From Nitrospira sp. (GTDB lineage Bacteria > Nitrospirota > Nitrospiria > Nitrospirales > Nitrospiraceae): a DNA stretch of 64,000 bases. The position numbers were made by a program, and so were the translations under genes. This document shows, piece after piece, positions 3,348-64,000 of this stretch (position 1 is its first letter; every line of letters starts with the position of its first letter). A model generated the notes under the pieces. That model ran no database searches. It was not told where the DNA came from and saw only the letters and a program-made list of their open reading frames with translations. The stretch is from contig CP126123.1 of assembly GCA_030123605.1 (NCBI GenBank), positions 4,245,237-4,309,236 of the forward strand, written 5' to 3'.

Positions 3348-3974
3348 ATGCCTTCCGTCGATTTCCGTCTGTACTTGGTCACCGATCGTCATCAGACCGC
3401 CGGGCGTCCGCTCTTGTCGGTGGTCGGTCGCGCCGTCCGCGCCGGTGTACGCGCCGTGCAGTTGCGTGAACGTGATTTGACGGCCCGCCAATTGCTCGCT
3501 CTGGCGACAGGCTTTCTACAGGAGATACCGAAGGTCGAATTGTTCATCAACGACCGTGTCGATCTGGCGTTGGCGCTGCCGTTCCATGGAGTGCATTTGC
3601 GCGAGAGCAGCTTGCCGACTTCGGTGGTGCGAAGTACGCTGCGGCCACAACAATTGCTCGGACGGTCCGTTCACTCCATCGATGGCGCGGTGGTCGCGGA
3701 ACGACAGGGGGCGGATTTTGTGGTGTTGGGTCCGATCTACGACACGCCGTCGAAGCGAGCATACGGACCGCCGCTCGGGCTGCGGGTACTTGAAGAGGCG
3801 GCGAGACAGATTCGGGTGCCGATCTTTGCAATCGGTGGAATCACCGCCGCACGTGCGCGCGAAGTGCGGCAAGCGGGCGGGTTCGGCATCGCGGTGATGT
3901 CGTCGATTTTGAGTGCGCCGAACGTGGAACAGGCGACCGAAGCACTGGTTGCCGCGATCGAGGTCGCGCGATGA
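3348..3974 (+). CDS. thiE: Thiamine phosphate synthase (ThiE/TenI family)
   Basis: Couples the thiazole and pyrimidine phosphates to make thiamine phosphate. The 208-residue TIM barrel has LYLVTDRHQ at the N-terminus, AVQLRERDL, the substrate-binding FINDRVDLAL, GVHL, RSVHS, VVLGPIYDTPSK and FAIGGI, in the family order. Parts such as GVHLRESSLP and YDTPSKRAYG also resemble TenI, the thiazole tautomerase branch of the same superfamily, and the two cannot be separated with certainty by eye. Its position after thiS-thiG fits either role. The downstream 154 bp are non-coding and carry the promoter of the proteasome operon. Confidence 0.85.
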   Translation: MPSVDFRLYLVTDRHQTAGRPLLSVVGRAVRAGVRAVQLRERDLTARQLLALATGFLQEIPKVELFINDRVDLALALPFHGVHLRESSLPTSVVRSTLRPQQLLGRSVHSIDGAVVAERQGADFVVLGPIYDTPSKRAYGPPLGLRVLEEAARQIRVPIFAIGGITAARAREVRQAGGFGIAVMSSILSAPNVEQATEALVAAIEVAR

Positions 3975-4039
3975 TGCGTCGTACTGTGCCGACGATGTGC
4001 GTGGACAAAATTCCCATGCGACGCAGCCGGCCTGTCCAG

Positions 4040-4068
4040 TTGACCACCCCCTATGTGGATGATAGAAT
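4040..4068 (+). promoter_or_regulatory. Sigma70-type promoter for the proteasome operon
   Basis: TTGACC (4040-4045) and TAGAAT (4063-4068) are separated by exactly 17 bp, one mismatch from consensus in each box. Transcription would start near 4075, giving a leader of about 54 nt before the mpa ATG. Nothing else in the thiE-mpa gap looks functional, so mpa-dop-prcB-prcA probably start here. Confidence 0.65.
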
Positions 4069-4128
4069 CCGAAACGACATAGACGACCGTTCCTGACAAG
4101 GCTTTCGAACGATTCAGCGAGTGGGTCC

Positions 4129-5898
4129 ATGGCCGAATCAAAGGGGAGTTCAGGCCGACTCCGGTCCTTACGTGATTCCGTCAAGCGCATCACCAAGTCA
4201 CTTTCTGACGGAGATGGGGTCGTGACTCACAAAAACGACGAACATGTGCGCGAAGTCGAAAAGCTTCGCATCCAAATCCAGTCGATGGAGGAGGAGATCC
4301 GACGGCTCTATCAGTCACGATACCAGCTTGAGCAAGCGACGAAGCAAAACGAAAAACTCGTCGCGACCCTCCAAGAAGCCAAATCTCAGATTGAGGCGTT
4401 GCGAGCCGAAGTCGAAAAACTGACCGCTCCTCCCTCAACCTACGGAATCTTCTCCAGCCTGGATACCGACGGGACCGGGAACGTGTACGTGTCCGGGCGC
4501 AAGATGAAGGTCAGTCTCCATCCTTCCATCAAAGCGAAGGACCTCCGCAAGGGCCAGGAAGTCATCCTTAATGAAGCGTTGAACGTCATCGAAGCACGCG
4601 GGTTCGACGTGCAGGGAGAAGTCGTCCGGTTGAAGGACGTGTTGGAGGGCAACAGGGCGTTGGTGACGTTGCATTTCGATGAGGAAAAGGTCGCGGAACT
4701 CGGCGAACCCCTGTTGAGCGAGCGGCTGAGCGTCGGGGATCATTTGCTGTACGATCCCCGTTCGGGCTGCGTGATCGAAAAACTCCCGAAGTCGGAAGCA
4801 GAGGAACTGGTCCTGGAGGAAGTGCCGGATGTGGATTACGAACACATCGGGGGACTCCAGAAAGAAATCGAGCAGGTCCGCGACGCGGTCGAGTTGCCGT
4901 TCCTTTATCCGCACGTTTTCTCGGATTACAAGCTGAGCGCACCGAAGGGCGTCTTGCTCTATGGCCCGCCAGGCTGCGGGAAGACCTTGATCGCCAAGGC
5001 CGTCGCCAGTTCGATCGCGAAGAAGCTCGGCCATCTCAAGGACAAGCAGCTGCGCAGCTATTTCCTCCATGTGAAGGGGCCCGAACTACTGAGCAAGTAT
5101 GTGGGAGAATCGGAGCGGCAGGTGCGAGAAGTCTTCAAGAAGGCGAAGGAACGGGCCGACGACGGCCATCCGGTGATCGTCTTCTTCGATGAAATGGATG
5201 CGCTCTTCCGTACGCGCGGTACCGGCATTTCATCCGACATCGAGTCCACCATCGTGCCGCAGTTTCTGTCGGAGATCGATGGAGTGGAGCGGCTGAACAA
5301 CGTGATCGTCATCGGTGCCAGCAACCGGCAAGATTTGATCGATCCGGCCGTGTTGCGCGCCGGTCGGCTGGATGTAAAGGTCAAGGTCGGTCGTCCGGAT
5401 GCCGTCGCGGCGCGGGATATCTTCTCCAAATACGTGACGACCGACCTGCCGTTCGCCGATGACGACCTGAAGCGGCATGGCGGGGATGCCCGAGCGCTCG
5501 TCGATTCGCTCATGAACACGACCGTCGAGGCCATGTATGCCATGTCGGACGAGAATAAGTTCATCGAAGTGACCTACGCGAACGGCGAGAAGGAAGTGCT
5601 CTATTTTAAGGATTTTGCCAGCGGTGCCTTGATCGAGGGCATCGTGTCGCGCGCCAAAAAATATGCGGTGAAGCGGGCGATCGCTCAAGAGGGAACCGGC
5701 CTGCGGGCCGAGGATCTGGTGCGGGCGATCCGTGAAGAATTCAAGGAGCATGAAGATTTGCCCAACACCACCAATCCGGACGATTGGGCGAAAGTTGCCG
5801 GCAAGAAGGGTGAGAAGATCGTCCATCTTCGGACGATCAGCGGCGGGCCGGCGGAGTCCCGTCAAATCGAAACGGTCAACACCGGGCACTATCTGTAA
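4129..5898 (+). CDS. mpa: Proteasome-associated AAA+ ATPase (Mpa/ARC)
   Basis: The hexameric unfoldase that feeds tagged proteins into the 20S proteasome; 589 residues (Mtb Mpa is 609). An N-terminal coiled coil spans about residues 35-98 (VREVEKLRIQIQSMEEEI and onward); in Mpa this part binds Pup. Two OB-like interdomain segments follow (about 100-235). The AAA domain has Walker A GPPGCGKT near residue 279, Walker B VIVFFDEMDAL near 349, and sensor/arginine motifs in VIVIGASNRQDLIDPAVLRAGRLD. The protein ends in GHYL; Mtb Mpa ends in GQYL. This Tyr-Leu tail is the signal that docks into pockets of the 20S alpha ring. dop follows after 15 bp. The intact coiled coil implies that a coiled-coil-binding tag exists in the cell. 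Confidence 0.95.
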   Translation: MAESKGSSGRLRSLRDSVKRITKSLSDGDGVVTHKNDEHVREVEKLRIQIQSMEEEIRRLYQSRYQLEQATKQNEKLVATLQEAKSQIEALRAEVEKLTAPPSTYGIFSSLDTDGTGNVYVSGRKMKVSLHPSIKAKDLRKGQEVILNEALNVIEARGFDVQGEVVRLKDVLEGNRALVTLHFDEEKVAELGEPLLSERLSVGDHLLYDPRSGCVIEKLPKSEAEELVLEEVPDVDYEHIGGLQKEIEQVRDAVELPFLYPHVFSDYKLSAPKGVLLYGPPGCGKTLIAKAVASSIAKKLGHLKDKQLRSYFLHVKGPELLSKYVGESERQVREVFKKAKERADDGHPVIVFFDEMDALFRTRGTGISSDIESTIVPQFLSEIDGVERLNNVIVIGASNRQDLIDPAVLRAGRLDVKVKVGRPDAVAARDIFSKYVTTDLPFADDDLKRHGGDARALVDSLMNTTVEAMYAMSDENKFIEVTYANGEKEVLYFKDFASGALIEGIVSRAKKYAVKRAIAQEGTGLRAEDLVRAIREEFKEHEDLPNTTNPDDWAKVAGKKGEKIVHLRTISGGPAESRQIETVNTGHYL

Positions 5899-8938: not shown

Positions 8939-9052
8939 CCCGCATTATTCACGACCGCTTCTGCTCCGATCACGCCCTCGCTGCTGCGCAAGCCCGTCTC
9001 GCGACGCGATCGTGCGATTTCGCGACGGACCGTCGTAAATAATGCGGGCTAG
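8935..9052. mobile_element. MITE-like element with 21-bp imperfect terminal inverted repeats
   Basis: The sequence CTAGCCCGCATTATTCACGAC at 8935-8955 is repeated in reverse complement at 9032-9052 with one mismatch. The 76-bp interior has no open frame of note and is rich in short CG-containing palindromes. CTAG at each edge could be a 4-bp target duplication, as made by IS5-type elements, although it is also self-complementary. The total size of 118 bp fits a non-autonomous miniature element or a long hairpin. No transposase is present. As RNA it would form a strong stem after prcA and might uncouple pafA from the upstream cistrons. Confidence 0.6.
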
Positions 9053-9164
9053 CCCTCCTCTCGAACCCGTTCCGTCACCGATGGGATTCGCTGTAACCGG
9101 AATATGGTTGTAGCGGTATCTCCTCCTCATCCTCGCTCTGTACCGGTCGCAATCACGCCGTCGG

Positions 9165-9193
9165 TTGAAGCCTCGCTTGCCACAGTGTATTCT
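9165..9193 (+). promoter_or_regulatory. Probable sigma70-type promoter for pafA
   Basis: TTGAAG (9165-9170) and TATTCT (9188-9193) are 17 bp apart, each two mismatches or fewer from consensus. Transcription would start near 9200, giving a leader of about 25 nt. AGGAGG at 9199-9204 lies further than usual from the ATG at 9225. The promoter is downstream of the inverted-repeat element, so pafA may be read independently of mpa-dop-prcBA. Confidence 0.5.
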
Positions 9194-9224
9194 GATACAG
9201 GAGGTGGTGAGAGACCACGGACCC

Positions 9225-10601
9225 ATGCAACAACGAATTTTCGGCCTGGAAAACGAATATGGCCTGATCTTCTCCCCCAACGGGAAGATCTATCTCCCCA
9301 TGGAGAAGGTCTTGGGCTATATCTTCGAAGGGCTGATTCCCAATAGCTGGCCGTCCAACGCGTTCCTGGTCAACGGGGCTCGATTCTACCAGGACACCGG
9401 CTGCCACCCCGAGTATTCCACGCCGGAATGCGACAACATCCTCGATCTGGTCGTGCACGACAAGGCCGGCGAGCGTTTGCTGGAGGCCTGTTTGCCGGCG
9501 GCCGAAGAGCGCCTGCGGGAAGAAGGCCTGTCCGGTGAAATCTATATTTTCAAGAACAACACCGACTCTCTCGGCAATACCTACGGCTGCCACGAGAACT
9601 ACCTCATGCGCCGGGACGTCGATTTCTGGAAAGTCACCGAACAGCTCATTCCGTTTTTCGTGACGCGGCAAATCTACTCCGGCGCCGGCAAGGTGTTGAA
9701 GGTCTCAGGCAAACCGCAATACTTCATCTCGCAGCGCGCCCAACATATCCATGAAAAGACCTCGTCCTCGACGACTTCGTCGCGGAGCATCATCAACACC
9801 CGCGATGAGCCTCATGCGGACGCGGAGAAATACCGGCGGCTCCACATCATCGTGGGCGACTCGAACATGTCGGAATATGCCACCTATCTGAAGGTCGGGA
9901 CCGCGACCCTGGTGCTCTCGATGGCCGAGGCGGGCTTTTCCGTCACCGGCATGGAACTCGAAGATCCCGTCAAAGCCATCCGCGAAATTTCCCGCGATCC
10001 CACGCTGAACAAGAAAGTGAAGCTGGACGACGGCCGGCAGATGACCGCCATCGAAATCCAGCGGGTCTACGTCAAGCGTGCGAAAGAATTTCTGACGGCG
10101 CAGGGTCATGATCCGATTCTGGACGACGTCCTGGCCAAATGGGTCTGGGTGCTGGATCGTCTCGAAGAGGACCCGATGCAATTGGTGCACGAGGTCGATT
10201 GGGTGATGAAGAAGCACCTCATCCAATCGTACATCGACAAGAAAGACTGCGGCTGGGACGATCCCAGAGTCTTCCTGCTGGATTTGCAATTTCATGACGT
10301 GAAACGCACCCGCGGACTGTATTATTTGATGGAGAATCGAGGAATGGCCGTTCGGGTGGTGGAAGAAGAAGCGGTGCAGCGCGCCATGTCGGTGCCGCCC
10401 CAGACCACCCGCGCCAAAGTCCGCGGCGACTTCATTCGGTTTGCGCGTGCCAAGAACCGCTCCTATACGGTAGATTGGACCTATCTGAAGTTGAACGGAT
10501 ACTGGGAAGAGACGATCCTCTGCATGGATCCGTTCAGCGCGGTGAACCGGCGGGTCGAAGAATTGTTGGCACAGGTCTCCGGCGTCCGATTTTATCGATG
10601 A
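9225..10601 (+). CDS. pafA: Proteasome accessory factor A (Pup-protein ligase)
   Basis: Ligates Pup or a Pup-like tag through its C-terminal glutamate to substrate lysines, using ATP. 458 residues, with the PafA N-terminus MQQRIFGLENEYG (Glu9, same position as in Mtb PafA) and the catalytic Asp57 in FYQDTGCHPEYSTPE. IYIFKNNTDSLGNTYGCHENYL and NTRDEPHADAEKYRRLHII complete the nucleotide site. It lacks the Dop-specific loop, so the paralogue assignment is clear. ATG 9225 is chosen because it matches the family N-terminus exactly; in-frame upstream starts would add unrelated residues. It is separated from prcA by 286 bp holding a MITE-like element and a likely promoter. Its stop overlaps the ATG of the following M23 peptidase. 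Confidence 0.95.
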   Translation: MQQRIFGLENEYGLIFSPNGKIYLPMEKVLGYIFEGLIPNSWPSNAFLVNGARFYQDTGCHPEYSTPECDNILDLVVHDKAGERLLEACLPAAEERLREEGLSGEIYIFKNNTDSLGNTYGCHENYLMRRDVDFWKVTEQLIPFFVTRQIYSGAGKVLKVSGKPQYFISQRAQHIHEKTSSSTTSSRSIINTRDEPHADAEKYRRLHIIVGDSNMSEYATYLKVGTATLVLSMAEAGFSVTGMELEDPVKAIREISRDPTLNKKVKLDDGRQMTAIEIQRVYVKRAKEFLTAQGHDPILDDVLAKWVWVLDRLEEDPMQLVHEVDWVMKKHLIQSYIDKKDCGWDDPRVFLLDLQFHDVKRTRGLYYLMENRGMAVRVVEEEAVQRAMSVPPQTTRAKVRGDFIRFARAKNRSYTVDWTYLKLNGYWEETILCMDPFSAVNRRVEELLAQVSGVRFYR

Positions 10602-53661: not shown

Positions 53662-53703
53662 GCGCGGCAGGAGGGGTCGGTCCACCATCGAGGAGGGTCG
53701 GTG

Positions 53704-54726
53704 ATGAAGCGGGCCTTGATTACCGGCATCACGGGACAGGACGGCTCCTACCTGGCGGAATTCCTGTTGGAACGCGGCTATGAGGTGCACGGGATCATCC
53801 GCCGTGTCGCCATGGAAGATCCGGAACACCGGCTTTGGAGAGTCGCTCACCTGCGAGAGCGCCTTCACCTCCATGCGGCTTCTCTGGAAAGCCTACCGAG
53901 TCTCTACCGTGTGCTCCAGGTCGTCGGTCCCGACGAGTGCTACCACCTCGGTGCCCAGAGCTTCGTGGCCTATTCGTTCGAGGATGAATTCTCGACGCTC
54001 AACGCCAATATCAACGGCACGCACCATATGCTCGCCGCCGTGCGCGATGTGGTCCCCCGCTGTCGGTTTTATTTCGCCGCTTCCAGTGAAATGTTCGGCA
54101 AGGTCGCCGAGGCGCCCCAGTCGGAGCGGACGCCCTTTCACCCCCGGTCCGCCTATGGGATTTCGAAGGTCGCCGGATTCGATCTCACGAGAAATTACCG
54201 GGAGGCCTACGATCTTTTTGCCTGCTCCGGGATTCTGTACAACCATGAGTCGCCGCGGCGTGGCTATGAGTTCGTCACGAGAAAAATCACCTCGCACGCG
54301 GCCCGCATCAAGCTCGGGCTGGCGAAGGAGGTACGGCTGGGGAACCTCGATGCCAAGCGCGATTGGGGGCATGCGCGGGAGTATGTGAAGGCGATGTGGT
54401 CGATGCTGCAGCAGGATGTGCCGGACGACTATGTCATCGCCACGGGGGAGCAACATACGGTGCGGGAGTTTGCGGAGGCGGCATTCAAGCGTCTCGGCTT
54501 GGACTATCGTCGGTATGTCAAGGTCGATCAGCAGTTCCTCCGTCCGGCCGAGGTGGAGACCCTGCTCGGTGATGCGTCGAAAGCCCGTACACGGTTGAAC
54601 TGGTCCTATCAGGTCACCTTCGACGATCTCGTCCATGAGATGGTCGATGCGGATCTCCGCTGGCTGGAATCTCGCCGAACATCGTCTTCTCGTTATCGTC
54701 GGGCGGACGGCAAACGCGCCGCCTGA
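53704..54726 (+). CDS. GDP-mannose 4,6-dehydratase family protein (first paralogue)
   Basis: 340 residues of the Gmd group in the extended SDR family. [33 protein letters not shown] is the Gmd N-terminus; HLGAQSFVAYSFEDE, FYFAASSEMFGKVAEAPQSE, SAYGISKVAGFDLTRNYREAY and ESPRRGYEFVTRKI follow. The catalytic pattern S-E-M..Y-x3-K is kept. It is clearly related to, but different from, the gmd at 56.4 kb: QSFV for QSHV and AYGISK for PYGAAK. It may therefore make a distinct GDP-6-deoxy-4-keto sugar or work with another partner. ATG 53704 follows a GTG and GGAGGG. A C-terminal tail of 15 basic residues is not conserved. Confidence 0.85.
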   Translation: MKRALITGITGQDGSYLAEFLLERGYEVHGIIRRVAMEDPEHRLWRVAHLRERLHLHAASLESLPSLYRVLQVVGPDECYHLGAQSFVAYSFEDEFSTLNANINGTHHMLAAVRDVVPRCRFYFAASSEMFGKVAEAPQSERTPFHPRSAYGISKVAGFDLTRNYREAYDLFACSGILYNHESPRRGYEFVTRKITSHAARIKLGLAKEVRLGNLDAKRDWGHAREYVKAMWSMLQQDVPDDYVIATGEQHTVREFAEAAFKRLGLDYRRYVKVDQQFLRPAEVETLLGDASKARTRLNWSYQVTFDDLVHEMVDADLRWLESRRTSSSRYRRADGKRAA

Positions 54727-58422: not shown

Positions 58423-59109
58423 ATGAAACCGGTCGTTAAAGCGTTCATTCAAGCTCGAATGTCGTCCAGGCGGTACCCGGGCAAGGTGCTCGCTCCCTTT
58501 CGCGGAGAAGCGATGATTCGACACGTCGTGCGCGCGGTCGAGCAGGTCTTTTCTTTCGAGGACATTGTTGTGGTGACGAGTGTCGATGCGTCAGACGATC
58601 CGCTCGTTCGCTACGTCGAATCACTCGGAATGCACATCTATCGAGGCCCGTTGGACAATGTCCTCGCCCGTTTCGTGTCTTGCGTGCGGAATCATCCGTG
58701 TGATTGGATTCTGCGGGTAAACGGTGACAGTCCGTTATTGTTTCCCGGCTTGCTCCGACTCATGGTTCCATACGCCGAACGGTTCGACGGCGACCTCGTG
58801 ACCACGACGTTCCCTCGGTCGTTTCCGAGAGGACAGAATGCCGAACTCATCAGGGTCAGTACCCTGCAGACCGTCGCACGGGAGGAGACCACTCAGGACG
58901 ACCAAGAGCATGTCACCCCGTTCTTTTATCGACAGCCTGCCAGGTTTCGTATCATGAATGTGGAGTCTGGAGACCGGAAACTCGCCGACATTGGTTTGGC
59001 GGTCGATACGATCGAGGATTTGCAACGGCTCGAGCCGTTGTCGGCAGAGGAGCTTCGCCGGTTCAGTCCGCCGATTCTAGGGGCGTGTATCGCCTCATCG
59101 TTGCCATGA
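58423..59109 (+). CDS. SpsF-like cytidylyltransferase (CMP-Kdo/CMP-nonulosonate synthetase family)
   Basis: 228 residues. KAFIQARMSSRRYPGKVLAPFRGEAMIRHVVRAV is the typical start of SpsF and related nucleotidyltransferases; VVVTSVDASDDPLVRYVESLG and LRVNGDSPLLFPGLLRLM (Asp that binds Mg) follow. The family activates acidic sugars as CMP derivatives. With a NeuB-type synthase four genes on, this protein is the only visible candidate for activating the product. The ATG follows GTG and is close to AGGTCGGG, a weak site. A longer open frame upstream lies over fcl and is not real. Confidence 0.82.
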   Translation: MKPVVKAFIQARMSSRRYPGKVLAPFRGEAMIRHVVRAVEQVFSFEDIVVVTSVDASDDPLVRYVESLGMHIYRGPLDNVLARFVSCVRNHPCDWILRVNGDSPLLFPGLLRLMVPYAERFDGDLVTTTFPRSFPRGQNAELIRVSTLQTVAREETTQDDQEHVTPFFYRQPARFRIMNVESGDRKLADIGLAVDTIEDLQRLEPLSAEELRRFSPPILGACIASSLP

Positions 59110-59142
59110 TTCAAGCGTCGGAAACAGAAGGATATGATACCC

Positions 59143-60321
59143 ATGAGTGATACGTTGCATATTCCGTTCGCCCGCCCGTGGATTACGGACGAGGATCGAC
59201 AGGCAGTCCTTGAGGTGCTCAACGGACACATCCTGACCCATGGCCCTCAATGCAAGTCCTTCGAGCAGGAATTCGCTGCGTTCCTGGGGAAGGATGCCCA
59301 TTGTGTATCGGTGAGTTCGTGCATGGCGGCCCTGCATCTCTCATACCTCCATTTCGGCATTGGACCAGGAGATGATGTCATCGTGCCCGCGCAAACCCAT
59401 GCGGCGACCGCTCATGCCGTTGAGTGGGTCGGAGCCACTCCGGTGTTCGTCGATTGTGATTCGCGAACGGGGAATCTGACCGCGTCGGCGATTGCCGCCG
59501 CGCTGACCCCCCGGACCAAGGCGATCTCGGTCGTTCATTTTGCGGGGATTCCATGCGACATGCCGCCCATTGTCGATCTCGCGCGACGGCATGGTCTCAG
59601 AATTATCGAGGATTGTGCGATTGCACTGGGGGCTCGACATCAGGGACGCCATGTCGGACTGTTCGGGGATGCCGGCTGTTTCTCGTTTTACCCGGTCAAA
59701 CACATGACGACGGGTGAAGGAGGCATGTTCGTCAGCCGTCACGAAGACGTATCTCAGGCGGTTGCCAAGCTACGGGCTTTCGGCGTTGATCGGACTCACA
59801 GTGAGCGGACCTTGCCCGGCATGTACGATGTACCGAGTCTCGGGCTGAATTACCGGATGAGTGAGATTCAGGCTGCCCTGGGTCGTTCTCAGCTTCGACG
59901 GATGAACGACGTGATGGCCCGACGTGCCTCGCAGTTCGATCGCTATCGAAAATTGCTGGGTGATCTGCCGCAGGTCCGACTCATCGCTACCGATGCCGCC
60001 GAGGCATGCGTAAGTCACTATTGCGCGAGCGTCGTATTCGAGGGAGAATACGGCGCCAAACGAAACGAGGTGGTGGCAGGCCTCAATACGGCGGGTATCG
60101 GGACCAGTATCTATTATCCGCAGCCGGTTCCACGCATGACCTACTATCAAAAGAAATACGGATCCACATCCGGCCGATACAGGCAGGCAGAATACCTCAG
60201 CGACTGTTCCGTCGCACTGCCGCTCGGAATGCATCTGGCGGAGGGAGATGTCGACAGAATCGTCGCCATGCTGGAGCACTGCTTGAAATCGGCTGTCGGT
60301 GAGAAAGGACACACACAGTGA
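59143..60321 (+). CDS. DegT/DnrJ/EryC1/StrS-family sugar aminotransferase
   Basis: A PLP enzyme that transaminates a keto-sugar nucleotide; 392 residues. The N-terminus HIPFARPWITDEDRQAVLEVL, the PLP contacts in SSCMAALHLSYL and IIEDCAIALGARHQGRHVG, and the Schiff-base lysine Lys186 in SFYPVKHMTTGEGGM are conserved. LNYRMSEIQAALGRSQL follows, with the C-terminal YYPQPVPRM. ATG 59143 has AGAAGGA ten bases upstream; ATG 59134 is one base from that site and less likely. The next gene overlaps by 4 bp. Sequence does not specify which keto sugar is used. Confidence 0.92.
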   Translation: MSDTLHIPFARPWITDEDRQAVLEVLNGHILTHGPQCKSFEQEFAAFLGKDAHCVSVSSCMAALHLSYLHFGIGPGDDVIVPAQTHAATAHAVEWVGATPVFVDCDSRTGNLTASAIAAALTPRTKAISVVHFAGIPCDMPPIVDLARRHGLRIIEDCAIALGARHQGRHVGLFGDAGCFSFYPVKHMTTGEGGMFVSRHEDVSQAVAKLRAFGVDRTHSERTLPGMYDVPSLGLNYRMSEIQAALGRSQLRRMNDVMARRASQFDRYRKLLGDLPQVRLIATDAAEACVSHYCASVVFEGEYGAKRNEVVAGLNTAGIGTSIYYPQPVPRMTYYQKKYGSTSGRYRQAEYLSDCSVALPLGMHLAEGDVDRIVAMLEHCLKSAVGEKGHTQ

Positions 60322-61364
60322 TCGAACTCCAAGGACGGAGGATTGCGCTCATCGGAGGTGCCGGGTTTATCGGTCATAACCTTGCGTTGACTCTGGCTCA
60401 ACTGGGTGCCGATGTTCACGCCGTGGACAGTCTGCAGGTGAACAACCTGGGCGCATTCTCGAATGTGCACGACGACGCGAACAAAGCGCTCTATCTTCAC
60501 TTCATTCACGACCGGTTACGCCTGTTACAGGAGGCGACCATTCCCCTTCATGTGGTCGATGCGCGGGACTATCATGTTCTCTCCCGTTGTCTCAATGAAA
60601 TCAAGCCCGATACGGTCGTGCAGTTGGCGGCCATCGCCCATGCGAATCGTGCCAACAAGGATCCGTACAGCACCTTCGATCACAGTTTGCGAACATTGGA
60701 AAACGCGCTGGATTGCGCACGGGGTCTGGATGCCCGTTTCATCTACTTCTCCTCCTCGATGGTGTATGGAAATTTCGACGGAGAAGCCGTCACCGAGGAA
60801 CGGCGCTGTGAGCCGTTAGGGATTTATGGCGCATTGAAGTATGGAGGAGAGAAGCTCGTTATTGCGTACAACCAGGTCTTCGGTCTTTCGTACACGATTG
60901 TCAGACCATCGGCATTGTACGGGGAACGGTGTGTCAGTCGGCGGGTAGGTCAGGCCTTTATCGAGAACAGCTTGAGGGGAATTCCTCTGACAGTCAATGG
61001 CGATGGAAGCGATGGACTCGATTTCACCTATGTGGAAGATCTTGTCCAAGGACTGGTGCTTTGCATCGTCAAGGGGGAGGCTCACAACCAGATCTTCAAC
61101 CTGACCTACGGCGGGGCGCGCACCTTGAAACAGATGATTGCCCTGATACAGGAGCATTTTCCATCGGCGGAGGTTCGATTCCAACCTCGGGATGTCTTGA
61201 TGCCGGAACGAGGTACGCTTTCGATAGAAAAGGCCAAAACGTTGTTGGGGTATAAACCGGCCTTTCCGTTGGAGAGGGGATTTGCGAAGTATATTCAGTG
61301 GTACAAGGAACTCGCGAGGCGGCATCAAAAGTTCTTCAGTCCGTCCCGACAGCGATCAGCGTAG
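60318..61364 (+). CDS. NAD-dependent sugar epimerase/dehydratase (extended SDR)
   Basis: 348 residues. RIALIGGAGFIGHNLALTLAQLG is the cofactor loop; DTVVQLAAIAHANRANKDPY, FIYFSSSMVYGNF (catalytic Ser) and GIYGALKYGGEKLVIAYN (YxxxK) follow, with VRPSALYGERCVSRRVGQAF and a C-terminal substrate domain. The family covers 4-epimerases, 4,6- and 5,6-dehydratases, and the substrate is not readable from sequence. Its placement between the aminotransferase and a NeuB-family synthase, overlapping the former by 4 bp, puts it in the amino-sugar pathway. No 4,6-dehydratase of the FlaA1/PseB type was recognised here, so this enzyme may do a first or second step. Confidence 0.84.
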   Translation: MIELQGRRIALIGGAGFIGHNLALTLAQLGADVHAVDSLQVNNLGAFSNVHDDANKALYLHFIHDRLRLLQEATIPLHVVDARDYHVLSRCLNEIKPDTVVQLAAIAHANRANKDPYSTFDHSLRTLENALDCARGLDARFIYFSSSMVYGNFDGEAVTEERRCEPLGIYGALKYGGEKLVIAYNQVFGLSYTIVRPSALYGERCVSRRVGQAFIENSLRGIPLTVNGDGSDGLDFTYVEDLVQGLVLCIVKGEAHNQIFNLTYGGARTLKQMIALIQEHFPSAEVRFQPRDVLMPERGTLSIEKAKTLLGYKPAFPLERGFAKYIQWYKELARRHQKFFSPSRQRSA

Positions 61365-61379
61365 GGGGGACAACCACCG

Positions 61380-62390
61380 TTGAAATTATTTGGAAAAAAT
61401 CTCGATGATACGGTGGCGGTTGTAGCCGAAATCGGTCTCAATCACGAAGGGAATGAAGCGGTCGCCGAACGACTGATCACCCTTGCCGCACAGGCCGGTG
61501 CGGACGCCGTAAAGCTGCAAACATTTACTCCTGAACGGTACGCCTCCGCGTCAGATCCCCATCGACTCGCTCGGATGATCCGGTTCAGTCTGTCGAAGGA
61601 CGCCCACCTCAGGCTGGCAACACATGCCGCCAGAGTGGGCATTCCATTGTTTTCGACGGCTCTTACCGAAGATGTGGTTGACTTCTTGGGGCAGTGGTGT
61701 CCGAGCCTAAAGATCGCCAGTGGAGATTTGACCTTTGAGCCGGTCATACGCGCGGCGATTCGTACCGGAAAGCCTGTGATCCTATCGACCGGAAACGGCA
61801 CGATCGAGGAAATCGATCAAGCGTTGAAATGGTGTGAGAGCGAACTGGATTCCGGTACGCTCAACGATCGTCTGGTGCTGATGCATTGTGTTGCGGCGTA
61901 CCCGACTCCTATCGAGCAAGCGAACGTTCTCAGCGTGCCGTTCCTTAAACAACGATATGGATTGACGACAGGGTACTCGAATCATGTGATCGGTTCGGAG
62001 GCTGTCCTTGCGGCAGTGGCGGTCGGCGCCCAACTCATCGAGGTTCATGTTACCGACAAGCGGGAGGGACGGGAGTTCCGCGATCATGCACTCTCATTCG
62101 AGCCGTCCGAGCTAGCAGAGCTGGTGCAACGTGTCGGGAGAGTGAGGGTGAGTCTGGGCCGGGCAAGGAAAGAGATACAGGCCTGCGAATTTCCGTTGCG
62201 CGAGGTCATCCGTAAGGGGGTCGTTGCAGCGAGAGAATTGGCGGCGGAGACGGTGCTCTCGGCGGGCGATCTGATGTGGGCTCGTCCCGCAACGGGCGTC
62301 AAGGCTGCCGAGTTGTCGTCCCTGATAGGAAAACGTCTCCTGCGTCCGCTCAAGCGCGGAGAGCAGATTACGTGGAACGAGGTGTGTTAA
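61380..62390 (+). CDS. NeuB-family nonulosonic acid synthase (SpsE-like) with SAF domain
   Basis: Condenses phosphoenolpyruvate with an aldose to give a nine-carbon acid; 336 residues. VAEIGLNHEGNEAVAERLI, AVKLQTFTPERYA, LFSTALTE, LKIASGDL, VILSTGNGT, MHCVAAYPTP and TTGYSNHVIGSEA are the barrel motifs. A C-terminal SAF (antifreeze-like) domain begins near residue 275 (RKGVVAARELAAETVL). A common E-K-H block after the barrel appears here as LIEVHVTDKREGREFRDHALSFEP, with Val in place of Lys. TTG 61380 is the only start near AGGGGGGA; no ATG is available before the fold. The exact product (sialic, legionaminic, pseudaminic or other) is unknown. Confidence 0.85.
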   Translation: MKLFGKNLDDTVAVVAEIGLNHEGNEAVAERLITLAAQAGADAVKLQTFTPERYASASDPHRLARMIRFSLSKDAHLRLATHAARVGIPLFSTALTEDVVDFLGQWCPSLKIASGDLTFEPVIRAAIRTGKPVILSTGNGTIEEIDQALKWCESELDSGTLNDRLVLMHCVAAYPTPIEQANVLSVPFLKQRYGLTTGYSNHVIGSEAVLAAVAVGAQLIEVHVTDKREGREFRDHALSFEPSELAELVQRVGRVRVSLGRARKEIQACEFPLREVIRKGVVAARELAAETVLSAGDLMWARPATGVKAAELSSLIGKRLLRPLKRGEQITWNEVC

Positions 62391-62392
62391 CG

Positions 62393-63106
62393 ATGCGAGT
62401 GCTCGTCCTGACGACGGATACGCTGCATCACGCATACTTTGTACGGGAACTCGTTTCTCAGGTGTCTCGGCTGCACGTCATTCTTGAAACAACCGGCGTC
62501 AAACCTACTTTTGACGTCGCTCATCCATTCGAATCGTTACGAGATCAATATGAACGTGATGTGTGGTTTAAAGGAAATGAGCCATCGATTCGGGAGTTCG
62601 CAGAGACAACGATTTGCCCGAACGTGAATGCTTCCGACGTCGTCGCGGCTGCAAAGGGGTTCTCACCTGAGATCACGGTTGCCTTCGGCATTCGCAAGGC
62701 CGAGCCTGCTCTGATCAGGGCTGCCGGACCTCGAGTCGTAAATCTGCATGGCGGAGATCCGGAATTTTATCGAGGGTTGGACAGCCAGCTCTGGGCGATC
62801 TACCACAACGATTTCAAGAATGTGGTGACGACCCTGCATGTCCTCAACGAAACGCTCGACGATGGCCCGATCATCGGCGTACGGCCTGTCGCGCTCTGTC
62901 GGGGCATGGGTCTGCATCAATTGAGACATCGCAACACCGAGTCGGCTTTCGAACTTACGCGGACGGCCTTGGACGAATTGAAACGGACAGGCGACGTGGC
63001 CAGTCGTAAACAACGTCAAATCGGGCGATACTATTCTTTCATGCCGTCGGTATTAAAGGATCTATGCGTGAAACGGTTCGAGAGGCATTGCGCACAATTG
63101 GAATGA
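62393..63106 (+). CDS. Formyltransferase-family protein (formyl-THF dependent sugar N-formyltransferase candidate)
   Basis: 237 residues. The GART-type formyltransferase fold is suggested by PEITVAFGIRKAEPALIRAAGPRVVNLHGGDPEFYRGLDSQLWAIYHNDFKNVVTTLHVLNETLDDGPII. It includes the VNLHGG, YRGLDSQLWAI and DDGPI blocks where Met-tRNA formyltransferases have N-x-H-x-S-LLP-x-x-RG and D-x-G. The usual Asn before His-Gly is kept as VNLHGG. Lack of the tRNA-binding C-terminal domain points to a small-molecule acceptor, most likely an amino sugar from the neighbouring aminotransferase. ATG 62393 overlaps nothing and has no strong ribosome site; GAGGTG is seen upstream. The polysaccharide deacetylase starts inside its stop (ATGA). 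Confidence 0.78.
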   Translation: MRVLVLTTDTLHHAYFVRELVSQVSRLHVILETTGVKPTFDVAHPFESLRDQYERDVWFKGNEPSIREFAETTICPNVNASDVVAAAKGFSPEITVAFGIRKAEPALIRAAGPRVVNLHGGDPEFYRGLDSQLWAIYHNDFKNVVTTLHVLNETLDDGPIIGVRPVALCRGMGLHQLRHRNTESAFELTRTALDELKRTGDVASRKQRQIGRYYSFMPSVLKDLCVKRFERHCAQLE

Positions 63107-64000
63107 GCTATTCGTCGAGGATATCCGACAACCGCATCGCCATTTTTTTGTTTCACGGTGTGACGCTGCCCGTCGATTGCTCCATACGAAATTATACCCG
63201 GAAACATATCGAACGCGATCACTTCACCGCTGTGCTCCGTGGGCTGAAGCGGGCGGGTACGCCGGTGAGCATGCACGACATCCTGAATCACCTGGACTCG
63301 GGAATTCCTCTTCCCCCACGGCCGTTTGCCGTGACGTTCGACGACGGTTTTCGGAACAACCTGTCGGTGGCGGCCCCGGTGCTGGTCGATGAGCATGTGC
63401 CCGCGACATTCTACGTCACCACGGATTTCGTCGAGCGAAACACGATGTCCTGGATCGATCGGATCGAGTTTGCCGTGGAGCAATGTGCTGATGCGGAACT
63501 CCGTCTTCCGTGGGGAGAACGACGGTTTCGCGGAGACGAACAACGTCGGCAATTTCTGACGGAGGTCCGACAAACCGTCAAGAATGATTTGATGATCGAC
63601 GGCGACAAACTCGCGACCGATATCCAGCATCAACTCGGCGTAGGAATCACCTACTCGAGTTCGCACCCGCTTGATCAGAAACTGGATTGGAACGAAGTCC
63701 GGACGCTGGCGGCCGAACCCTTGTTTGCAGTCGGCGGCCACGGGCATTCGCACACGATCCTGGAATCCCTTGGCGACGAGGAACTGGGACGCGAACTGGA
63801 TGTGAGCATACGGTTGTTGAGAGAAAAGGCCGGCATTGAGGGGCCGCATTACTCGTATCCGGAAGGGATGCCGAACTGCTATTCGGACCGAGTCATTCGA
63901 GCGTTGAAGGATAGAGGCATTCGCTGTTGTCCCAGTGCCGTCGATGGTGTGAACGAGTCGGCTTCCGATCTGTTTCATCTGAAGCGGGTCATGGTTATCT
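63103..64000 (+). CDS. Polysaccharide deacetylase (NodB/CE4), cut by the window end
   Basis: The frame is open from ATG 63103 to the window end, about 299 residues visible. IAIFLFHGVTLP, PFAVTFDDGFRNNLSVAAPVLVDEHVPATFYVTT and GGHGHSHTILESLGDEELGRELD are the CE4 motifs: the Asp-Asp of TFDDG is the first metal/catalytic motif and H-S-H-T supplies the metal His pair. SYPEGMPNCYS is the third motif. Enzymes of this fold deacetylate N-acetyl sugars on polysaccharides or precursors. The start overlaps the preceding stop by 4 bp. The C-terminus and any further domain lie outside the window. Its position suggests deacetylation of the sugar made by this cluster, perhaps before or instead of formylation. 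Confidence 0.87.
   Translation, partial: MSYSSRISDNRIAIFLFHGVTLPVDCSIRNYTRKHIERDHFTAVLRGLKRAGTPVSMHDILNHLDSGIPLPPRPFAVTFDDGFRNNLSVAAPVLVDEHVPATFYVTTDFVERNTMSWIDRIEFAVEQCADAELRLPWGERRFRGDEQRRQFLTEVRQTVKNDLMIDGDKLATDIQHQLGVGITYSSSHPLDQKLDWNEVRTLAAEPLFAVGGHGHSHTILESLGDEELGRELDVSIRLLREKAGIEGPHYSYPEGMPNCYSDRVIRALKDRGIRCCPSAVDGVNESASDLFHLKRVMVI

Follow-up and report, generated by a model that had tools for sequence, protein, structure and literature searches.

A 64,000-nucleotide stretch of the Nitrospira sp. genome (positions 4245237-4309236 of its single 4,316,411-bp contig; hereafter the window) ends in six plus-strand genes, which occupy 58423-64000 and encode, in this order, a cytidylyltransferase (SpsF), an aminotransferase (DegT), a predicted epimerase (Epim), a NeuB-family synthase (NeuB), a formyltransferase-like protein (Fmt) and a predicted deacetylase (CE4). 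Here we report that these genes make up the first half of a conserved operon, which runs past the window end, and we refer to the whole set as the module. On balance, we read the module as an uncharacterised route to a cytidine monophosphate (CMP)-activated, aminated ulosonic acid of the nonulosonic-acid type, whose acceptor sugar would not be made as a nucleoside diphosphate (NDP)-sugar and which may carry an optional cassette for replacing an acetyl group with a formyl group. The reading draws on the recurrence of the module in distant phyla, the absence of the standard acceptor-making enzymes, sequence signatures in NeuB and Epim, and the paired occurrence of Fmt and CE4.

Organization and conservation of the module

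The original prediction had described six open reading frames (ORFs) with this order, strand and family assignment, and all six are borne out by Pfam or NCBIfam matches:

58423..59109, + strand: SpsF-like cytidylyltransferase (CTP_transf_3 PF02348, 86 bits; best PDB match the cytidylyltransferase 6oew, then KdsB)
59134..60321, + strand: DegT-family pyridoxal phosphate (PLP)-dependent sugar aminotransferase of the PseC/ArnB/perosamine-synthase-like subgroup (PF01041, 379 bits)
60318..61364, + strand: Epim, an extended short-chain dehydrogenase/reductase (SDR) (Pfam Epimerase; S-Y-K present, SSSMVYG, Leu234)
61380..62390, + strand: NeuB-family phosphoenolpyruvate (PEP)-dependent synthase with a SAF domain (PF03102, 205 bits, and SAF)
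62393..63106, + strand: Fmt, sugar-N-formyltransferase-like (NCBIfam formyltransferase, 34.5 bits; alternative GTG start at 62384)
63103..64000, + strand: CE4, predicted de-N-acetylase (PF01522, Polysacc_deac_1, 57.7 bits; the stop ends 2 bp beyond the window)

The genes had also been described as tightly packed with 4-bp overlaps. Such overlaps are present between DegT and Epim (60318-60321) and, given the CE4 start at 63103, between Fmt and CE4 (63103-63106); this start corresponds to a Met that is conserved in relatives, within a longer ORF from 63064. SpsF and DegT are instead separated by 24 bp and Epim and NeuB by 15 bp, and the NeuB-Fmt spacing varies with the chosen start. The G+C content of the module is 56%, compared with 60% for the window.

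The gene order recurs in relatives of the same genus and in distant phyla, and is thus conserved beyond chance. The operon is present in four same-genus relatives at 70-91% identity and partially in a fifth, and it also occurs in related genera outside the genus. A scan of genome contigs for NeuB recovered the set, whole or in part, in metagenome-assembled genomes of Alphaproteobacteria, in Planctomycetota (including Scalindua), in Desulfobacteraceae (Desulfobacterota) and in Eisenbacteria, and plasmid p5 of Azospirillum brasilense carries the module as well. In the latter (L139:6675-8710), Gfo and DegT are split or incomplete, with possible frameshifts or decay.

A genome search based on Epim provided a test free of selection on NeuB. 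The module proved rare, with 9 of 395 genomes positive in the phylum of the window and 4 of 345 and 7 of 372 in two others. Among eight newly fetched loci with an Epim of at least 44% identity, the stretch available contained DegT and AsnB in all eight, NeuB in seven and Gfo in six; as to the two loci lacking Gfo, L163 is cut by a contig end and none was seen in L164. At the NeuB position of L164 (11700-13055), there is an opposite-strand ORF that ends in an apparent PEP-CTERM-type tail. The distribution is patchy and crosses phyla, which implies horizontal transfer of the module among phyla.

The second half of the operon and the surrounding locus

Downstream of CE4, in the same operon, lie genes for a Gfo/Idh-type dehydrogenase (Gfo), a GNAT acetyltransferase, AsnB, WbuX, a small protein (orf131) and a methyltransferase, spanning approximately 64051-70093 in window-equivalent coordinates. 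The extension past 64 kb completes no legionaminic (Leg) or pseudaminic (Pse) acid pathway. The original proposal, an sps/neu-like module whose target is an unidentified acidic sugar, is thereby both supported and reinforced, as the genes form a conserved unit with no such completion downstream. The N-acetyltransferase that had been thought missing is, however, present about 1 kb beyond the window end, as the WecD-like GNAT, a putative enzyme for an N-acetyltransferase step like that of the Leg and Pse pathways.

WbuX scores 315.5 bits as an N-acetyl sugar amidotransferase, above the curated NCBIfam cut-off of 203.2, and its translation contains the PP-loop SGGKDS and the tetracysteine motif CVSC + CNAC (CxxC..GVCNAC). 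An SGGxDS PP-loop and a tetracysteine motif are marks of the WbuX family, for which the chemistry has been described (PMC10607449). The protein orf131 (131 residues; L003:11095-11490) adjoins WbuX in several phyla at 48-80% identity; it has no Pfam or NCBIfam match, and its AlphaFold2 (AF2) model has a mean predicted local distance difference test score (pLDDT) of 60.

The module is part of a surface-glycan locus, as rml-type genes, GMD, Fcl and an O-antigen ligase-type protein lie upstream of it. This region includes a second GMD-like dehydratase (window positions 53701-54726; 393.6 bits, gmd cut-off 415), of which no second copy was seen in the loci of relatives. Judged by eye from their translations, aminoglycoside-3-N-acetyltransferase-like genes lie near the module at L055:13847-15913 and L140:18092-20000, and a gene resembling β-ketoacyl synthase III (KAS III) lies near it in L140.

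The module lacks the standard acceptor-making enzymes

The absence of a recognizable 4,6-dehydratase and of a hydrolysing 2-epimerase, as originally noted, holds at the locus. We considered Epim as the missing dehydratase and rejected it: it has SSSMVYG where the RmlB of the same window has STDEVYG, and thus lacks the TDE signature. No PseB was found in the module loci, and the LegB-like matches there are weak (26-36% identity) and correspond to SDRs that include RmlB and Epim itself. A search of the whole genome found no PseG and no NeuC-type enzyme. A NeuC supplied from elsewhere was rejected, since both PF02350 proteins are of the non-hydrolysing WecB type, and a second NeuB was likewise rejected, as the other PF03102 match is a 3-deoxy-D-arabino-heptulosonate 7-phosphate (DAHP) synthase; the NeuB of the window is therefore the only one in the genome.

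This pattern extends to the other module loci. Homologues of NeuC/LegG or PseG are found in the neighbourhood of 50 of the 71 NeuB loci outside the module and of none of the 21 module loci (Fisher p 2e-9, uncorrected for relatedness, with some loci being short). Furthermore, at curated cut-offs both NeuC and PseG are absent from the entire genome in 12 of 19 module genomes, PseG having been searched in all but G020. No recurring hydrolase gene was noticed in the module loci.

Another reading would make the module a degenerate or incomplete legionaminic or pseudaminic cluster. Its NeuB, DegT, SpsF and GNAT all have counterparts in those pathways, but the module is intact, colinear and conserved across phyla, and its NeuB and Epim have the distinctive signatures described below; we thus regard decay as very improbable.

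Signatures in NeuB, Epim and DegT

NeuB retains the equivalents of E25, K53, Q55, K129, Y186, S213, H215, H236, D247 and R314 (Neisseria meningitidis NeuB numbering, used throughout); the PEP- and metal-binding residues and R314 of N. meningitidis NeuB are retained across the module NeuBs. The roles of these sites, including a loop region that faces C4-C6 of the acceptor, have been described (PMC7371886). The acceptor loop (Q55-T110) consists of 47 residues in all 21 module NeuBs and in all 7 from further loci, compared with 54-62 residues in 78 of 86 others, and an arginine is present in the loop of every module NeuB listed. At position 133, NeuB has Gly where pseudaminic synthases have Phe. 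The protein scores below the curated models for NeuB_NnaB (254 versus 399.65 bits) and PseI (198.5 versus 340.25 bits). In L053, two extra NeuB-like genes (381-1373 and 3494-4567) accompany the module NeuB.

The original prediction had drawn attention to a Val in place of the common Lys. This substitution is real, with EVH at position 235 where EKH or ERH is usual. Of the two module subclades, however, a single one has it, and it also occurs in an unrelated NeuB (L035); we rejected it as a functional change. Judging from the alignments, the important difference of these synthases is the shortened acceptor loop.

Epim has Leu before the D[FW] motif (Leu234) in all 20 module proteins and in 8 of 8 further ones, whereas 57 of 61 other SDRs from these loci have Arg there, a residue known to bind the nucleotide diphosphate in GalE/RmlB-type enzymes. 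Together, the NeuB loop and the Epim Leu would point away from an NDP-sugar route. DegT keeps the PLP lysine (K189 in KHMTTGEGG; alignment A5); it scores 312.7 bits with the PseC model, under the cut-off of 423.5, and its PDB matches place it closer to perosamine synthase (215 bits) and ArnB (208 bits) than to KdnA.

An optional cassette of Fmt and CE4

Fmt and CE4 are both present in 14 loci, both absent from 14 and split in none; at L078 the sequence stops within NeuB and the downstream side is unseen. Among the relatives of the window, loci that have the pair and loci that lack it are colinear in the rest of the operon. The original suggestion of an N-formylated sugar is plausible, in that Fmt is a sugar-N-formyltransferase homologue in which the N..H..D residues are visible when it is aligned with ArnA. 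Nonetheless, formylation does not define the sugar, because half of the loci have the core without Fmt. The similarities of Fmt are distant: the Pfam Formyl_trans_N match is weak (23.3 bits, cut-off 26.1), ArnA in the PDB is a weak match, and PseJ (PDB 6ci2; 22.6 bits, E 7e-4) ranks behind ArnA and Rv3404c-type enzymes. In L054, a second formyltransferase-like ORF, judged by eye, lies next to NeuB (9036-9992) in addition to Fmt.

The D-H-H metal residues of CE4 are conserved (alignment A3), and no signal peptide is visible by eye. Its AF2 model (pLDDT 90) has as its closest folds the de-N-acetylases PgaB, IcaB and PplD (E 1e-13 to 1e-10), whereas ArnD ranks only 24th (E 0.017, template modelling (TM) score 0.33), and CE4 has no match to the ArnD model. 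Because of this fold and the lack of a visible signal peptide, we favour the replacement of acetyl by formyl on a small intermediate in the cytoplasm over a formyl protection step. In the latter scheme, Fmt and CE4 would act as in ArnA/ArnD-type transient protection, with Fmt formylating and CE4 later deformylating, leaving a free amine in the final sugar; the strict pairing and adjacency of the two genes would suit such a scheme, but the resemblance of the CE4 model to PgaB, IcaB and PplD rather than to ArnD makes it improbable.

Among the relatives of the window, NeuB type switches together with Fmt and CE4, as seen in comparisons of sequences and trees. The locus L041 (G020) lacks Fmt and CE4; its DegT, Epim and Gfo share 80-88% identity with those of the genus, whereas its NeuB is 59-63% identical to those of the genus and 74-75% identical to those of Fmt-less members of other genera. 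In the NeuB tree, a genus clade including L041 was rejected (approximately unbiased (AU) test, p 1e-4), whereas the DegT and Epim trees place L041 with the genus, the reverse grouping being rejected (AU p 8e-52 and 7e-5, respectively). The comparison of L041 with L140 and L142 shows a NeuB whose history differs from that of its neighbours, that is, an allele exchange between genera within an otherwise vertical operon. The co-switching fits a NeuB that recognizes the acyl group.

Two candidate residue markers of Fmt were rejected. Position 136 of NeuB (Thr with Fmt, Asn or Asp without) failed in further loci, and positions 125 and 127 (Phe and Val in Fmt-less loci; another residue and Ala or Ser in Fmt-bearing loci) were valid in one NeuB subclade alone.

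Proposed pathway

In the pathway that we propose, the substrates, the sequence of reactions and the product are all predictions. Gfo would oxidize a sugar hydroxyl, DegT would aminate the resulting ketone, Epim would invert one centre and GNAT would acetylate the amine. In genomes with the cassette, CE4 would then remove the acetyl group and Fmt would replace it with formyl, NeuB being tuned to the formyl form. NeuB would condense the resulting aldose with PEP, and SpsF would add CMP. WbuX would form an acetamidino group from an N-acetyl, and AsnB, rather than HisH/HisF, would probably be its glutamine-dependent partner and source of ammonia, although AsnB might alternatively amidate a carboxyl group; the ulosonic acid product probably has an acetamidino substitution. 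The surface glycan encoded around the module would receive the sugar.

We place the early steps off an NDP-sugar because there is no 4,6-dehydratase or hydrolysing 2-epimerase and because Epim has lost the diphosphate-binding Arg. NtdC belongs to the Gfo-type dehydrogenases. By analogy with NtdC/NtdA, a dehydrogenase-aminotransferase pair that acts on a sugar phosphate, glucose-6-phosphate (PMC8788734), the early steps most likely take place on a sugar phosphate or a free sugar. We hold more tentatively, at somewhat less than an even chance, a broader formulation: an undescribed route, spread horizontally among phyla, in which amino groups are added at the level of a free sugar, a sugar phosphate or the ulosonate and not of an NDP-sugar, so that a hydrolysing epimerase is dispensable. 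In this formulation, the acyl group would be switched by the exchange of a cassette made up of NeuB, Fmt and CE4.

One alternative order is tailoring after condensation. A simple ulosonic acid would be formed by NeuB from a common aldose or aldose phosphate and activated by SpsF, and the modifying enzymes (Gfo, DegT, Epim, GNAT and WbuX) would act afterwards, on the ulosonate or CMP-ulosonate. KdnB/KdnA, which make 8-amino-Kdo from Kdo (3-deoxy-D-manno-octulosonic acid), are a precedent. The contiguity of SpsF-Gfo-DegT-Epim in several phyla agrees with this order, as does the fact that in several distant loci NeuB is less conserved than Epim, Gfo and DegT are; a CMP-sugar substrate would suit an Epim without the diphosphate Arg. 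The switching of NeuB type with Fmt and CE4 among the relatives of the window suggests instead that acylation precedes condensation, and DegT is nearer to ArnB and perosamine synthases than to KdnA; we therefore consider tailoring unlikely, if less so than the next alternative.

A conventional NDP-sugar route would oxidize UDP-N-acetylhexosamine (UDP-HexNAc) at position 3 or 4, aminate it and release the free acceptor by an unrecognized hydrolase. WbpB/WbpE and GnnA/GnnB are such UDP-HexNAc oxidation-amination pairs, and the Gfo and DegT families serve in routes of this kind. However, every module Epim has Leu for Arg, no recurring hydrolase gene was seen in the module, and 12 of the 19 genomes are without NeuC or PseG above cut-off, which leaves this route with a low probability.

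Several observations weigh against the proposed pathway. Among proteins of solved structure, those nearest to DegT and to Epim are NDP-sugar enzymes; Gfo has inositol and sugar dehydrogenases as its named relatives, which leave its substrate unfixed; and no phosphatase was seen in the module. Some non-module NeuBs also have short loops, and some have no neighbouring NeuC. L164 (Planctomycetota) contains the module without an adjacent NeuB. The co-switching of NeuB could be explained by physical linkage, as NeuB, Fmt and CE4 are neighbours, and it breaks down in Alphaproteobacteria, where the NeuB of L051 groups with that of L052.

Comparison with known systems

Genome-based prediction of nonulosonic acids usually relies on the NeuC/NeuB/NeuA, PseB-I or LegB-I sets. 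If the proposed pathway is true, such surveys would misread module genomes, either as incomplete or as those of Leg or Neu producers, and a new acidic sugar would be expected in the surface glycans of Nitrospira, Scalindua, Azospirillum and others. Naturally occurring loci with and without Fmt and CE4, each with the matching NeuB type, would also offer a ready comparison for acceptor specificity.

The module shares with the Leg, Pse and sialic acid pathways (LegB-C-H-G-I-F, PseB-C-H-G-I-F and NeuC-B-A) a NeuB-family PEP synthase, a DegT aminotransferase (Leg and Pse), an N-acetyltransferase and a CTP-dependent cytidylyltransferase. It differs from them in lacking the 4,6-dehydratase and NeuC/LegG/PseG, in adding Gfo/Idh, a distinct SDR, AsnB and WbuX, and in the 47-residue NeuB loop. 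We refrain from classing it as a Leg, Pse or Neu pathway, because defining features of these pathways were looked for and not found. The Bacillus sps genes comprise SpsC, SpsE, SpsF and an SpsG-like hydrolase; the module contains SpsF-, SpsE- and SpsC-type enzymes but no SpsG-like hydrolase, and has Gfo, Epim, AsnB and WbuX in addition.

A formyltransferase adjoins NeuB genes in Halorubrum sp. PV6 and in PseJ systems, as in the module. Halorubrum sp. PV6, which has 5-N-formyl-legionaminic acid, has a complete Leg pathway (PMC6137143), unlike the module, and PseJ is only weakly similar to the module Fmt (22.6 bits), which is paired with CE4. The module WbuX resembles WbpG, WbuX and LpNASAT, with a score above cut-off and the PP-loop and tetracysteine motifs (PMC10607449), whereas most module loci have AsnB as the neighbour instead of HisH/HisF; HisH/HisF-like genes are present in L051 and L053. 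The use in series of a sugar dehydrogenase and a PLP-dependent aminotransferase is common to NtdC/NtdA, WbpB/WbpE and GnnA/GnnB and is proposed for the module, where NeuB and SpsF would follow.

In the open-access literature searched, no account of this gene set came to light. Nonulosonic acids with N-formyl or acetamidino groups are themselves already known: PMC3210612 cites a 7-formamido nonulosonic acid from Pseudoalteromonas and, in its reference list, acetamidino nonulosonic acids. As far as the open-access literature shows, what sets the module apart from these systems is a conserved gene set without acceptor-making enzymes, the NeuB and Epim signatures, and the paired Fmt and CE4 with which NeuB co-switches.

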